Positions 40,547 to 44,638 of a DNA stretch of 59,815 nt are shown piece by piece (the stretch's first letter is position 1; each line of letters opens with the position of its first letter). The stretch covers positions 1 through 59,815 of the forward strand of contig JAITDW010000002.1 in NCBI GenBank assembly GCA_031282355.1. The letters are read 5' to 3'. Under the pieces are notes generated by a model. The model was not told the origin of the DNA and searched no databases. It saw only the letters and a list, made by a program, of their open reading frames with translations. Source of the stretch: Candidatus Endomicrobiellum neotermitis. Lineage in GTDB: Bacteria > Elusimicrobiota > Endomicrobiia > Endomicrobiales > Endomicrobiaceae. A program made the position numbers and the translations under genes.

Positions 40547-41812
40547 TTATTTTGGTCTTATAGTACTAAAACCTGTATACTTATGCAGTATTTCAGGAAT
40601 TAATACAGACCCATCTTTTTGCTGATAGTTTTCAAGTATCGCAGCAAAAGTTCTGCCAACTGCTACTCCCGAAGCATTTAAAGTATGTAAAAATTCTTTT
40701 TTTTTATTTTGTAATTTTACCTTTATATTCATTCTTCTTGCTTGAAAGTCTTTGAAATTGGAACATGATGAAACCTCTTTATATGTAGCATCACTAGCAA
40801 ACCATACTTCTAAATCATAAGTTTTAGATGATGCAAAACTCATTTCTTCTGTTGACAAAAGTACTGTTCTATAAGGAAGTTCTAATAGTTTTAAAACATT
40901 CTCAGCATCATCAAGAAGGAATTCAAGTTCTTTGTTTGAAGTATCTGGACTGACAAATTCAACTAATTCAACTTTATTGAATTGGTGATTTCTAATGAGT
41001 CCTTTTGTATCTTTACCATAGGTTCCTGATTCTCTTCTGAAACATGCTGAGTAAGAAACATATTTTTTTGGTAAAAAAAATTCTTCTAGAACGCTGTCTC
41101 TATGGATATTTGTTACAGGTACCTCAGCTGTTGGTATTAAATATAATTCGTCGTTAGCACACTTAAATACTTCTTCTGTAAATTTTGGAAATTGCCCGGT
41201 ACCTATCATTGAATTTCGGTTTACAAGATAAGGAGTCATTACTTCTTTATATCCTCTAGTTTTATGAGTATCTATGAAAAAATTGATGATCGCTCTTTCT
41301 AAAGTACATCCTTCATTTTTTAAAATCACAAAACGTGCTCCTGAAATTTTTGATGCTGTTATAAAATCAAGTATATCTAGTTTTTTACCTAATTGCCAGT
41401 GAGATTTCGGATTGAAATGAAACTTTTTAGGTTTACCAACAAACTTTAAAATTTTATTATTTTTACCCACAGGCACACTTTTGTCAGGAATATTAGGAAC
41501 GCATAACAAAGAATCGTTTATACTAGTTTCAATTTTAAAGAGTAATTTTTCTTGTGTCTGAATTTCAGATCTTAACTCATTTAGTTCTGAAGTAAGCTTT
41601 GATAAAAAATCATTTTTGCATTTTACTTTATATTTGTATATTATTTCAGATCCTTTATTCCTTTTAAGTCTCAAATGTTCTATTATAGATATTAATTTTT
41701 TTCTTTGACTATCAAGGTCTAATAGCCTATCAAAATCAATCACTATATTTCTATCAAGCATTGCTTGTTTAGCGTTTTCTATATTTTCCTTAATAAACTT
41801 AATATCTATCAC
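40547..41812 (-). CDS. serS: Serine--tRNA ligase
   Basis: 421 residues, the only confident minus-strand gene. It has an N-terminal antiparallel coiled-coil arm (about residues 30-105), which grips the tRNA-Ser long variable arm, and a class II catalytic domain. Motif 2 lies at [18 protein letters not shown], and motif 3 lies near the C-terminus, ending in [16 protein letters not shown]. The class II serine site segment [13 protein letters not shown] is present. Convergent with folD and divergent from the rubredoxin gene. I searched its upstream region for a T-box antiterminator sequence and found none. Confidence 0.96.
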
Positions 41813-42450: not shown

Positions 42451-43656
42451 ATGAAGCAAGTATATTTAGACAATCAATCAGGTACTAAACTTGATACAAA
42501 AGTGATTGATGCAATGGTGCCTTTTTTTACTGAATATTATGGGAACCCGCAAAGTATTCATTCTTTAGGAATTATTTCAAGAAAAGCTTTAGAAATAGCA
42601 AGATATCAGGTTAGTTCTTTGATAAATGCATCTGAAGAAGAAATTATTTTTACGTCTTGTGGTACTGAATCAAATAATTTAGCAATAAAGGGCATTGCTG
42701 ACACTTTGAAATCTAATGGGAAACATATCATTGTTTCTTCAATAGAGCATATTTCTATTTTAAATTCAGTAAGAAAACTTAAAGTTGAAGGGTTCGATAT
42801 CAGTTACTTACCAGTAGATAATAAAGGAAATATTATTGAAGATGAATTAAAAAAAATGTTAAGAAAAGATACTATTTTGGTATCTATACAATATGCAAAC
42901 CCTGAAATTGGAACAATTCAAGATATAAAAAAATTAGTTTCAATAGTCAAGAATAGCATCAATGTTAGTGATTTTATAGTTTTTCATAGTGATGCTGTTA
43001 GTGCTTTTGGAATAATTCCCATAGATGTTGAAAAATTAGGAGTTGATATTTTGACTTTTTCATCTTCAGTAATTCATGGACCTAGAGGATCTGCGGGGTT
43101 GTACGTAAAAAAAGGTATAAGGATTAGTTCTCAAATTAATGGTGGTGGACAAGAAAATTTTAAACGTTCAGGGACTGAAAATCTTCCATCTATTGTTGGA
43201 TTTGGTAAGGTATGCGAAATAGTCAAGAATGAAATGTCAAAAAATAACGAAATTATTTGTACGTTAAGAAATAAACTTATTACTGAACTCTCACAAAGAT
43301 TAAAATATATTTACTTAAATGGTGCTTGTGAAAATCGTTTACCGGGTAATGTTAATTTTTCTGTAGAATTCGTTGAAGGTGAAGCACTACTTTTACTTTT
43401 AGATAATGCAGGTATTATGGTATCAAGTGGTTCTGCGTGTGCTAGTAAAAATCTTAAGTCTTCATATATTTTATCAGCTATTGGCGTTAACACTGTACTT
43501 AGACAAGGATCTATAATATTTACATTATCAAAATTTACTACAAGAGAAGAAATCAATTATGTGTTGGAAAAATTTTCGGATATTGTTAGCAAACTGAGAA
43601 ACATATCCTCATTGTATTTAGATTTTATAAAAACAGGAAGAAGGATTAAAGTTTAA
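42451..43656 (+). CDS. NifS/IscS-like protein lacking the PLP lysine
   Basis: 401 residues, full length for a class V aminotransferase-fold cysteine desulfurase. It starts like NifS (VYLDNQSGTKLDTKV), and keeps the ring-stacking His (H100), the Asp under the pyridine nitrogen (D181) and the flexible-loop catalytic Cys (SSGSAC, C330). The cofactor lysine motif S-x-H-K reads S204-S-S-V207 before HGPRG, so both the His and the Schiff-base Lys are gone. The Gln after the Asp is S184, NNEIG reads NPEIG, and the usual substrate-binding Arg before SLGRFTT is Ile. It probably cannot use PLP normally. No IscU/NifU scaffold lies nearby. Function unknown. Confidence 0.85.
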   Translation: MKQVYLDNQSGTKLDTKVIDAMVPFFTEYYGNPQSIHSLGIISRKALEIARYQVSSLINASEEEIIFTSCGTESNNLAIKGIADTLKSNGKHIIVSSIEHISILNSVRKLKVEGFDISYLPVDNKGNIIEDELKKMLRKDTILVSIQYANPEIGTIQDIKKLVSIVKNSINVSDFIVFHSDAVSAFGIIPIDVEKLGVDILTFSSSVIHGPRGSAGLYVKKGIRISSQINGGGQENFKRSGTENLPSIVGFGKVCEIVKNEMSKNNEIICTLRNKLITELSQRLKYIYLNGACENRLPGNVNFSVEFVEGEALLLLLDNAGIMVSSGSACASKNLKSSYILSAIGVNTVLRQGSIIFTLSKFTTREEINYVLEKFSDIVSKLRNISSLYLDFIKTGRRIKV

Positions 43657-43704: not shown

Positions 43705-43932
43705 ATGGAGAATATCGATATTTTGGTTGTAAGAATAGAAAAAGTAATAGGAAGGTTAAAAATGCTAGTTGAAGAAAATCGTATGCTTAAGTTAGAACTA
43801 GAATATCTTAAAAAGGAATATACTAACAGTAAAAGACAGATGAGTGGATGTATTGTGTTAAAAAAAAATACTGAAGATGCTATAGTAAAAATAGAAAAAA
43901 TTATAAAAAAAATTGATATGACTAAAATTTAA
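43705..43932 (+). CDS. Small coiled-coil protein, ZapB-like
   Basis: 75 residues, almost entirely heptad-patterned (LKMLVEENRMLKLELEYLKKEY). No membrane span and no catalytic motif. Many bacteria encode a short coiled-coil protein of this kind immediately before zapA, where it acts in or is annotated as the ZapB division-ring bundler; that context is the basis of the call. Similarity to true ZapB is only of the coiled-coil type. ATG 43705 has a weak GAAAGAG upstream. The zapA gene follows 3 bases after its stop. Confidence 0.6.
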   Translation: MENIDILVVRIEKVIGRLKMLVEENRMLKLELEYLKKEYTNSKRQMSGCIVLKKNTEDAIVKIEKIIKKIDMTKI

Positions 43933-43935
43933 ATT

Positions 43936-44220
43936 ATGGTAACCGCAAGAGAAAAAATTATGGGGAGAGATATAGATCTTAACATAGATGATATAGATGA
44001 ATCAATATTTAACAAAGTTGTAAATTTTGTAAATGAAAAATGGTTAGAGGTAAAAACTGAAAACGTTAACGTCCCTGATACTCAAAAAATAGCAGCTTTA
44101 ACTGCTATAAAAATTGCGATTGAATTGCTTAAATTGAGAGATCTACAAAAAGACATTTTAAGTAGTTATGAAAACAAAATAAAAAAACTCATAGTACATC
44201 TTGACGAAAATAATTATTAA
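43936..44220 (+). CDS. zapA: Cell division protein ZapA
   Basis: 94 residues. Order matches ZapA: a short beta hairpin (REKIMGRDIDLNI), then VNFVNEKWLEVK and, in the long helix, DTQKIAALTAIKIAIELLKLRD, which is the family's best-conserved block, followed by a coiled-coil tail. ZapA crosslinks FtsZ filaments at midcell. The start is ATG 43936 without a visible ribosome-binding site, so translation probably couples to the preceding gene; ATG 43960 is possible but cuts the first strand. Confidence 0.8.
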   Translation: MVTAREKIMGRDIDLNIDDIDESIFNKVVNFVNEKWLEVKTENVNVPDTQKIAALTAIKIAIELLKLRDLQKDILSSYENKIKKLIVHLDENNY

Positions 44221-44638
44221 GATGAACATTTTAGACTATAGCTTTATATAGGATTTACTATATATGATTTTTTACAAAATGTTCTATAAGAAAAATATAT
44301 TTTTTGCGATATTATTTATTTTCTTTTAAGAAAAGTTAGATCGATATAAAACAATAAAATATTGTAGCTTTTACATTATAAATAATAGTAATTATTGTGA
44401 AATAAATTCTTTAAAATATCTCAAAACATAAAGATAGATTTCTTGTTATAAAAATATCAGTTTGCAGTGTTTAAAAATCTGACGTTTCAAACTATTTTAA
44501 AGATTCAAATTTATGTGATAGAATATCGAGACGTTGTAGTAAAAAAACATATTTATACATTTTCAAATGTGTTATTTGACAAACTATTTAGAATTTTAAA
44601 CCACCCTTGAGTAAAGGGTTTGTAAGGGGGTAAATCTC
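44221..44638 (+). other. Intergenic region zapA-fau; possible 6S RNA locus
   Basis: 418 bases without a protein gene. In many bacteria the 6S RNA gene lies exactly between zapA and the 5-formyl-THF cyclo-ligase gene. The 3' part here has pairing potential: CGAGA 44527-44531 with TCTCG 44635-44639; AACATATTT 44546-44554 with AAATGTGTT 44565-44573; and a hairpin at 44603-44619. The outer stem is only five pairs and I cannot show the open central bubble of 6S RNA, so this is a candidate only. Confidence 0.25.
44603..44630 (+). promoter_or_regulatory. Hairpin able to compete for the fau ribosome-binding site
   Basis: ACCCTT (44603-44608) can pair with AAGGGT (44614-44619) around a five-base loop. 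Its CCCTT part can alternatively pair with AAGGG at 44624-44628, within the AAGGGGG ribosome-binding site of fau. Two mutually exclusive pairings next to a start codon could modulate translation. This is a by-eye observation in otherwise AT-rich sequence, without any recognised riboswitch family. Confidence 0.25.

Follow-up and report, generated by a model that had tools for sequence, protein, structure and literature searches.

An IscS-like protein that has lost the Schiff-base lysine of cysteine desulfurases is encoded in the genome of Candidatus Endomicrobiellum neotermitis, on contig JAITDW010000002.1, of which positions 1 to 59,815 (hereafter the window) were analysed. We label this 401-amino acid protein (Pfam Aminotran_5) IscS*, for a presumably PLP-independent IscS paralogue, and consider it reasonably probable that it is a dedicated structural partner of the scaffold IscU, with its Cys330 serving as a ligand or as a persulfide carrier. 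Many bacteria and archaea encode Lys-less kin beside iscU and genes of sulfur carriers; iscS* is therefore probably not a broken gene but a functional one, re-purposed for Fe-S cluster assembly.

Residue state and fold of IscS*

The iscS* gene extends over positions 42451..43656 of the forward strand, which encodes all the residues mentioned below, and translation of its 401 codons encounters no stop. Residues were aligned to E. coli IscS (the sequence of PDB 3lvj), whose numbering serves as reference. Translation and alignment place Ser206-Val207 (43066..43071) at His205-Lys206, the latter being the Schiff-base lysine. The alignment also places Ser184 (43000..43002) at the PLP-contacting Gln183 (PMC9978102), Pro151 (42901..42903) at Asn155, giving NPEIG for NNEIG, and Ile356 (43516..43518) at the substrate-carboxylate Arg354. 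Three residues are retained, namely His100 (42748..42750), Asp181 (42991..42993) and, in the SGSAC loop, Cys330 (43438..43440), which correspond to His104, Asp180 and the catalytic Cys328, respectively. These losses and retentions had been read from the DNA alone in the original prediction; all are real and correctly numbered.

In profile searches, IscS* did not reach the cut-off of any NCBIfam desulfurase model (444.6 against 530.75 for TIGR03402, 379 against 643 for IscS and 269.8 against 304 for PRK02948). Among the hallmarks of a desulfurase, the window protein hence lacks a score above a curated HMM cut-off as well as Lys206, Gln183, His205 and Arg354, and possesses the equivalents of the catalytic Cys, His104 and Asp180. 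In E. coli IscS, the K206A and Q183E substitutions destroy activity, some PLP still being bound by K206A (PMC9978102). Judging by its sequence, the window protein is unable to form the internal PLP aldimine.

An AlphaFold2 model of IscS*, built with 27 orthologues, reached a pLDDT of 89.2 and a pTM of 0.88, the segment 331-337 of the Cys loop being disordered (pLDDT < 50). Its top PDB match is NFS1 in human ISC complexes (query-normalised TM-score of 0.93-0.95), followed by Archaeoglobus fulgidus IscS in complex with IscU (4eb5; query-normalised TM-score of 0.91-0.92). A. fulgidus IscS (PDB 4eb5, 4eb7 and 4hvk) had been put forward as a precedent, and rightly so: it shares with IscS* the fold, the retained Cys and, probably, an IscU partner, its Schiff-base Lys is replaced by Asp199, and the positions of Gln183 and Arg354 are occupied by Ala and Leu. 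It differs from IscS* in being archaeal, in replacing Lys by Asp instead of Val/Gln and in its overall sequence (42% identical in the structural alignment). This archaeal protein has no desulfurase activity and contributes a Cys as ligand of the IscU-bound cluster (PMC7585200).

The Cys loop of IscS* carries two lysines specific to the Lys-less group (Lys333-x-x-Lys336, 43447..43458), which, in E. coli numbering, occupy positions 331 and 334 and are present in 78% and 95% of the Lys-less proteins versus 1% each of the canonical ones. Together with the invariance of His104 and Asp180 and the PLP kept by E. coli K206A, they would suit a protein that is still a desulfurase, holding PLP non-covalently or through one of these relocated lysines. 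We regard this as quite improbable, because Gln183 and Arg354 are gone along with Lys206, the E. coli K206A and Q183E variants are inactive, as is A. fulgidus IscS, and the loop segment bearing both lysines is disordered in the model.

Distribution, conservation and ancestry of the Lys-less family

The lysine is absent from 68 out of 68 orthologues checked in the Endomicrobia phylum (genus, order, class and phylum samples). A read error or frameshift at the Lys codon was rejected on this basis, and a correction restoring Lys at codon 207, which the original prediction had named as fatal to its reading, is contradicted by the absence of Lys in all homologues. Among the best 80 of 583 confirmed relatives, the nearest named homologues of the window protein belong to ‘Candidatus Endomicrobiellum’ and to Endomicrobium MAGs, i.e. 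to symbionts of termite-gut flagellates. The multi-residue Lys-less signature recurs in approximately 38 further proteins, which come from about 15 additional bacterial groups and from three archaea. A contig scan, which took the best 80 of 583 confirmed relatives and is hence a biased sample, yielded 36 Lys-less loci outside Endomicrobia, in Bacillota, Dehalococcoidia, other Chloroflexota, ‘Deltaproteobacteria’, Omnitrophota, Nitrospirota, Acidobacteriota, Saganbacteria/Margulisbacteria, Planctomycetota, Zixibacteria, WOR-3, Bathyarchaeota and Thaumarchaeota; a clade confined to Endomicrobia was thereby rejected. The commonest replacement of Lys in the family is Gln.

Residue states were compared between 106 Lys-less and 76 canonical proteins. 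As the Lys-less rows are defined by the Lys column, the co-varying residues constitute the actual test. Arg354 is kept in 0/105 Lys-less proteins, Gln183 in at most 5/106 and His205 in 8/106, and every Lys-less protein covering the respective columns keeps His104 (106/106), Asp180 (106/106) and Cys328 (105/105). The canonical rows keep Gln183, His205, His104, Asp180 and Cys328 in 76/76 and Arg354 in 75/76.

By NG86, close orthologue pairs gave a dN/dS of 0.09-0.20; when the window gene was one member of the pair, the range was 0.08-0.23, with dS near saturation. Selection on the protein, initially deduced from the open frame and the Cys loop, is thus borne out by the close-pair values and by the retention of Cys wherever its column is covered. 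The gene is kept in symbiont genomes of 0.2-0.6 Mb and is also carried by free-living relatives of 1.5-3.4 Mb, and its presence in the latter led us to reject a decay restricted to one lineage with a small genome. The reduced size of the window genome (0.58 Mb), the departure of iscS* from the iscU operon and the disappearance of the His-rich tail could all evoke a duplicate in decay or a pseudogene-in-progress; this is highly improbable given the intact ORF, the dN/dS values of the window gene relative to its relatives, the invariant Cys and the occurrence of the protein across phyla. A near-complete genome of the class (G027, 99%) harbors the canonical protein only, and IscS* is hence dispensable in some lineages.

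Phylogenetic trees were built with the trait columns removed. In the unconstrained trees, the bacterial Lys-less proteins cluster, with the Lys-bearing protein of PDB 9wep near their base, and A. fulgidus IscS and its archaeal homologues form a group apart from this bacterial clade. When all Lys-less rows were constrained to a single group, the resulting tree scored 24 log units above that of the quick search, and the AU test did not reject it (p-AU 0.78). The unconstrained trees had suggested separate losses of Lys in Bacteria and in Archaea, which we therefore do not firmly assert. The PDB entries 9wep, 9wer, 9wew, 9wfe, 9wf8, 9wfb and 9wfy all represent one cysteine desulfurase whose PLP site was altered stepwise; one entry of the series is devoid of Lys, and the wild-type-like sequence is the one found near the base of the Lys-less clade.

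IscS* retains a long C-terminal region (in the window protein, the tail SSLYLDFIKTGRRIKV at 43606..43653), whereas that of the canonical paralogue is short. In relatives, the tail is extended by a His/acid-rich segment, GPGTDYEHEHEH, which the window protein has lost. At least three His are found in the tail of 42/68 IscS* from the Endomicrobia phylum, compared with 0/35 other bacterial Lys-less proteins and 0/77 canonical proteins. The His/acid-rich tail GPGTDYEHEHEHEE occurs on IscS* of L024, L026, L023 and other phylum members, and has been lost in the most reduced symbionts. This tail is possibly a metal site. These counts, along with the PerR/Fur and ferritin-like genes in the operons of many relatives, could suggest that IscS* serves IscU as a subunit delivering iron or sensing metals; this is improbable, as neither the window protein nor the proteins from other phyla have the tail, which is hence at most an add-on.

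Genomic context in the window genome and in relatives

The genome, 582 kb in size and 85% complete, comprises three contigs, one of which is the window. A second, canonical desulfurase, whose existence the original prediction proposed to verify, is indeed present in this genome (G000) at G000:C1:231583-232743, near mnmA. It displays the SAHK motif and the GSAC loop, is 42% identical to IscS* and is the only further class-V homologue of this type in the genome. The sole IscU is encoded on another contig than iscS* (C3:190832-191194), within an iscU-zinc ribbon-flavodiiron operon; iscU therefore does not adjoin iscS* here, and the pairing of their products in this organism rests on the relatives. 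No SufB/D core was found in the window genome, making IscU the only Fe-S scaffold system found. The SUF core is likewise missing in 40/41 genomes of the class, the same search being positive in 14/14 control genomes, and IscU is present in 41/41 class genomes. No TusA was found in the window genome, nor in any of the 25 genomes of the symbiont genus.

In the window, iscS* is preceded by the divergent serS gene (40547..41812, reverse strand) and followed by an ORF encoding 75 coiled-coil-like amino acids (43705-43932) and a zapA-like gene (43936..44220, forward strand). A 418-bp gap (44221-44638) separates zapA from the 5-formyl-THF cyclo-ligase gene (ygfA). The zapA-ygfA gap is a frequent site of 6S RNA; no Rfam match was obtained in the gap, and no 6S RNA was found there. 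The contig starts with a partial 23S rRNA gene followed by the 5S rRNA (1-473), and no tRNA genes were found across the 60-kb window.

In relatives, iscS* and iscU are at most 1 kb apart in 33 of the 38 class genomes that possess both (coordinate count), the window genome being among the exceptions, and a solo orphan gene was rejected by these operon data. Neighbours were labelled by homology, the IscU, DsrE2 and TusA labels being confirmed by Pfam/NCBIfam. Two layouts recur: (PerR, ferritin-like)-iscS*-iscU-zinc ribbon-dsrE2-tusA-(flavodiiron, desulfoferrodoxin, rubrerythrin) and mnmA-iscS(K)-[Rrf2]-iscS*-iscU. Across the phylum, iscS* is the operonic partner of iscU, and purifying selection maintains the fold, the Cys loop, His104 and Asp180 of its product. 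A non-desulfurase role, as originally proposed, thus gains support from this selection, from the joint loss of Lys, Gln, His and Arg with total retention of Cys, His104 and Asp180, from the pairing with iscU and from the presence of a canonical paralogue able to do the chemistry. The sequence alone did not reveal the spread of the family over several phyla, its tie to TusA/DsrE2 or the absence of SUF.

In Endomicrobia and Dehalococcoidia, the operons that contain iscS* and iscU encode, directly 3' of iscU, a zinc-ribbon protein of 57-100 amino acids with no assigned function (L053:9282-9452, L102:5576-5758); the window genome keeps a relative (L223:5143-5391, on G000:C3) beside iscU and the flavodiiron gene. 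Three class members (G036:C3, G039:C24 and G033:C3) carry a TusA domain within open frames of 540-766 amino acids, which are possible TusA fusion proteins.

In the contig scan of the best 80 of 583 relatives, whose loci are phylogenetically non-independent, TusA was located no more than 3 kb from 25/36 of the Lys-less loci but from only 1/42 of the canonical ones (Fisher 7e-11); for DsrE2, the respective counts were 12/36 and 0/42 (Fisher 3e-5). A second, smaller control relied on canonical loci, most of them from genomes in which a Lys-less gene is likewise present: TusA was nearby in 12/17 Lys-less versus 0/27 canonical loci, IscU in 15/17 versus 5/27, and mnmA was near six canonical loci and no Lys-less ones. 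This suggests a division of labour, with canonical IscS devoted to tRNA thiolation and sulfur supply, and IscS* to IscU.

Live and dead IscS are encoded side by side in one operon in several Endomicrobiaceae (L205, L206, L207, L209, L210 and L211), often together with mnmA and, in some, with Rrf2 nearby or between. IscS is an obligate dimer that, in E. coli, binds IscU near its C-terminus (PMC2854127). IscS* could hence be the regulatory or structural dead half of a heterodimer with live canonical IscS, steering the live site to IscU, which would also fit the proximity of both genes in one Dehalococcoidia locus and the longer C-terminal tail, retained in IscS* but absent from the canonical copy. 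We find this unlikely, as the two proteins are only approximately 42% identical and their genes are far apart in most genomes. Furthermore, on a complete Dehalococcoidia chromosome (L102, 1.12 Mb), the Lys-less protein is the only IscS/NifS/SufS-type protein found, the next class-V match being a serine-pyruvate-aminotransferase-like protein; likewise, no canonical class-V desulfurase was found beside IscS* in two further genomes, L103 and L131, which may be incomplete.

Proposed mechanism and relation to known systems

As a PLP-independent partner of IscU, our favoured reading, IscS* would form an IscS*2-IscU2 complex as in A. fulgidus 4eb5, which would place Cys330 at the IscU assembly site. 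There, Cys330 could either ligate the nascent cluster, as reported for A. fulgidus, or carry a persulfide generated elsewhere. Free-living relatives would obtain their sulfur from TusA/DsrE2, and the TusA-less symbiont from its canonical IscS paralogue or from sulfide. As the symbiont genus has lost TusA yet keeps IscS*, TusA is not the sole reason for IscS*, and canonical IscS or sulfide must suffice as a source there. A broader proposal, which we advance tentatively and hold to be rather doubtful, is that of a widespread and ancient ISC variant in which clusters are built on IscU with no cysteine desulfurase acting there. Sulfur from TusA/DsrE2, or sulfide, would be passed to the Cys loop or beyond it, the PLP-free IscS having become purely a persulfide relay and a ligand-providing subunit for the cluster. 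In this scheme, some anaerobes would do without a class-V desulfurase, and Endomicrobium symbionts would keep the relay together with canonical IscS as their sulfur source.

ISC-type systems are described as taking sulfur from L-cysteine via a PLP desulfurase (PMC11559095). E. coli IscS and human NFS1 share with IscS* the fold (TM-score 0.91-0.95), the Cys loop and an LSPL-type C-terminal region, and differ from it by Lys206, Gln183, His205 and Arg354, lost in IscS*. IscS binds both IscU and TusA (PMC2854127); canonical IscS gives sulfur to TusA, and the flow may be reversed for IscS*. In the MIS system (MisS-MisU), a minimal Fe-S machine is likewise made up of IscS-like and IscU-like proteins, but its cysteine desulfurase is described as supplying the sulfur (PMC11559095), whereas the neighbour of IscU described here is devoid of the catalytic residues. 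The pattern that defines MIS, an IscS-like/IscU-like pair without SUF, is nevertheless found in the class, with IscU in 41/41 genomes and the SUF core in 1/41. Methanosarcina acetivorans IscS1, an uncharacterised protein of an iscSU pair, is likewise reported to lack the catalytic Lys (PMC7585200).

Lys-less IscS is thus already known from A. fulgidus and M. acetivorans, and so are minimal IscS-IscU systems such as MIS (PMC11559095). The open-access literature searched contained no specific description of bacterial Lys-less IscS, of a multi-phylum family or of a TusA-DsrE2-IscU operon, and within it the breadth of the family and the link to TusA/DsrE2 appear to be new. A. fulgidus IscS has so far looked like an isolated oddity; if our reading is true, a Lys-less family located by iscU, and often by tusA/dsrE2, in more than 10 bacterial groups and in archaea would turn this oddity into the rule for many anaerobes, and the source of sulfur where the partner of IscU is dead would become a question testable with small soluble proteins. 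The cut-off of PRK02948, ‘IscS subfamily cysteine desulfurase’, is passed by two of the four homologues scanned; public pipelines can therefore name Lys-less proteins ‘cysteine desulfurase’, and pathway reconstructions may be wrong as a result.
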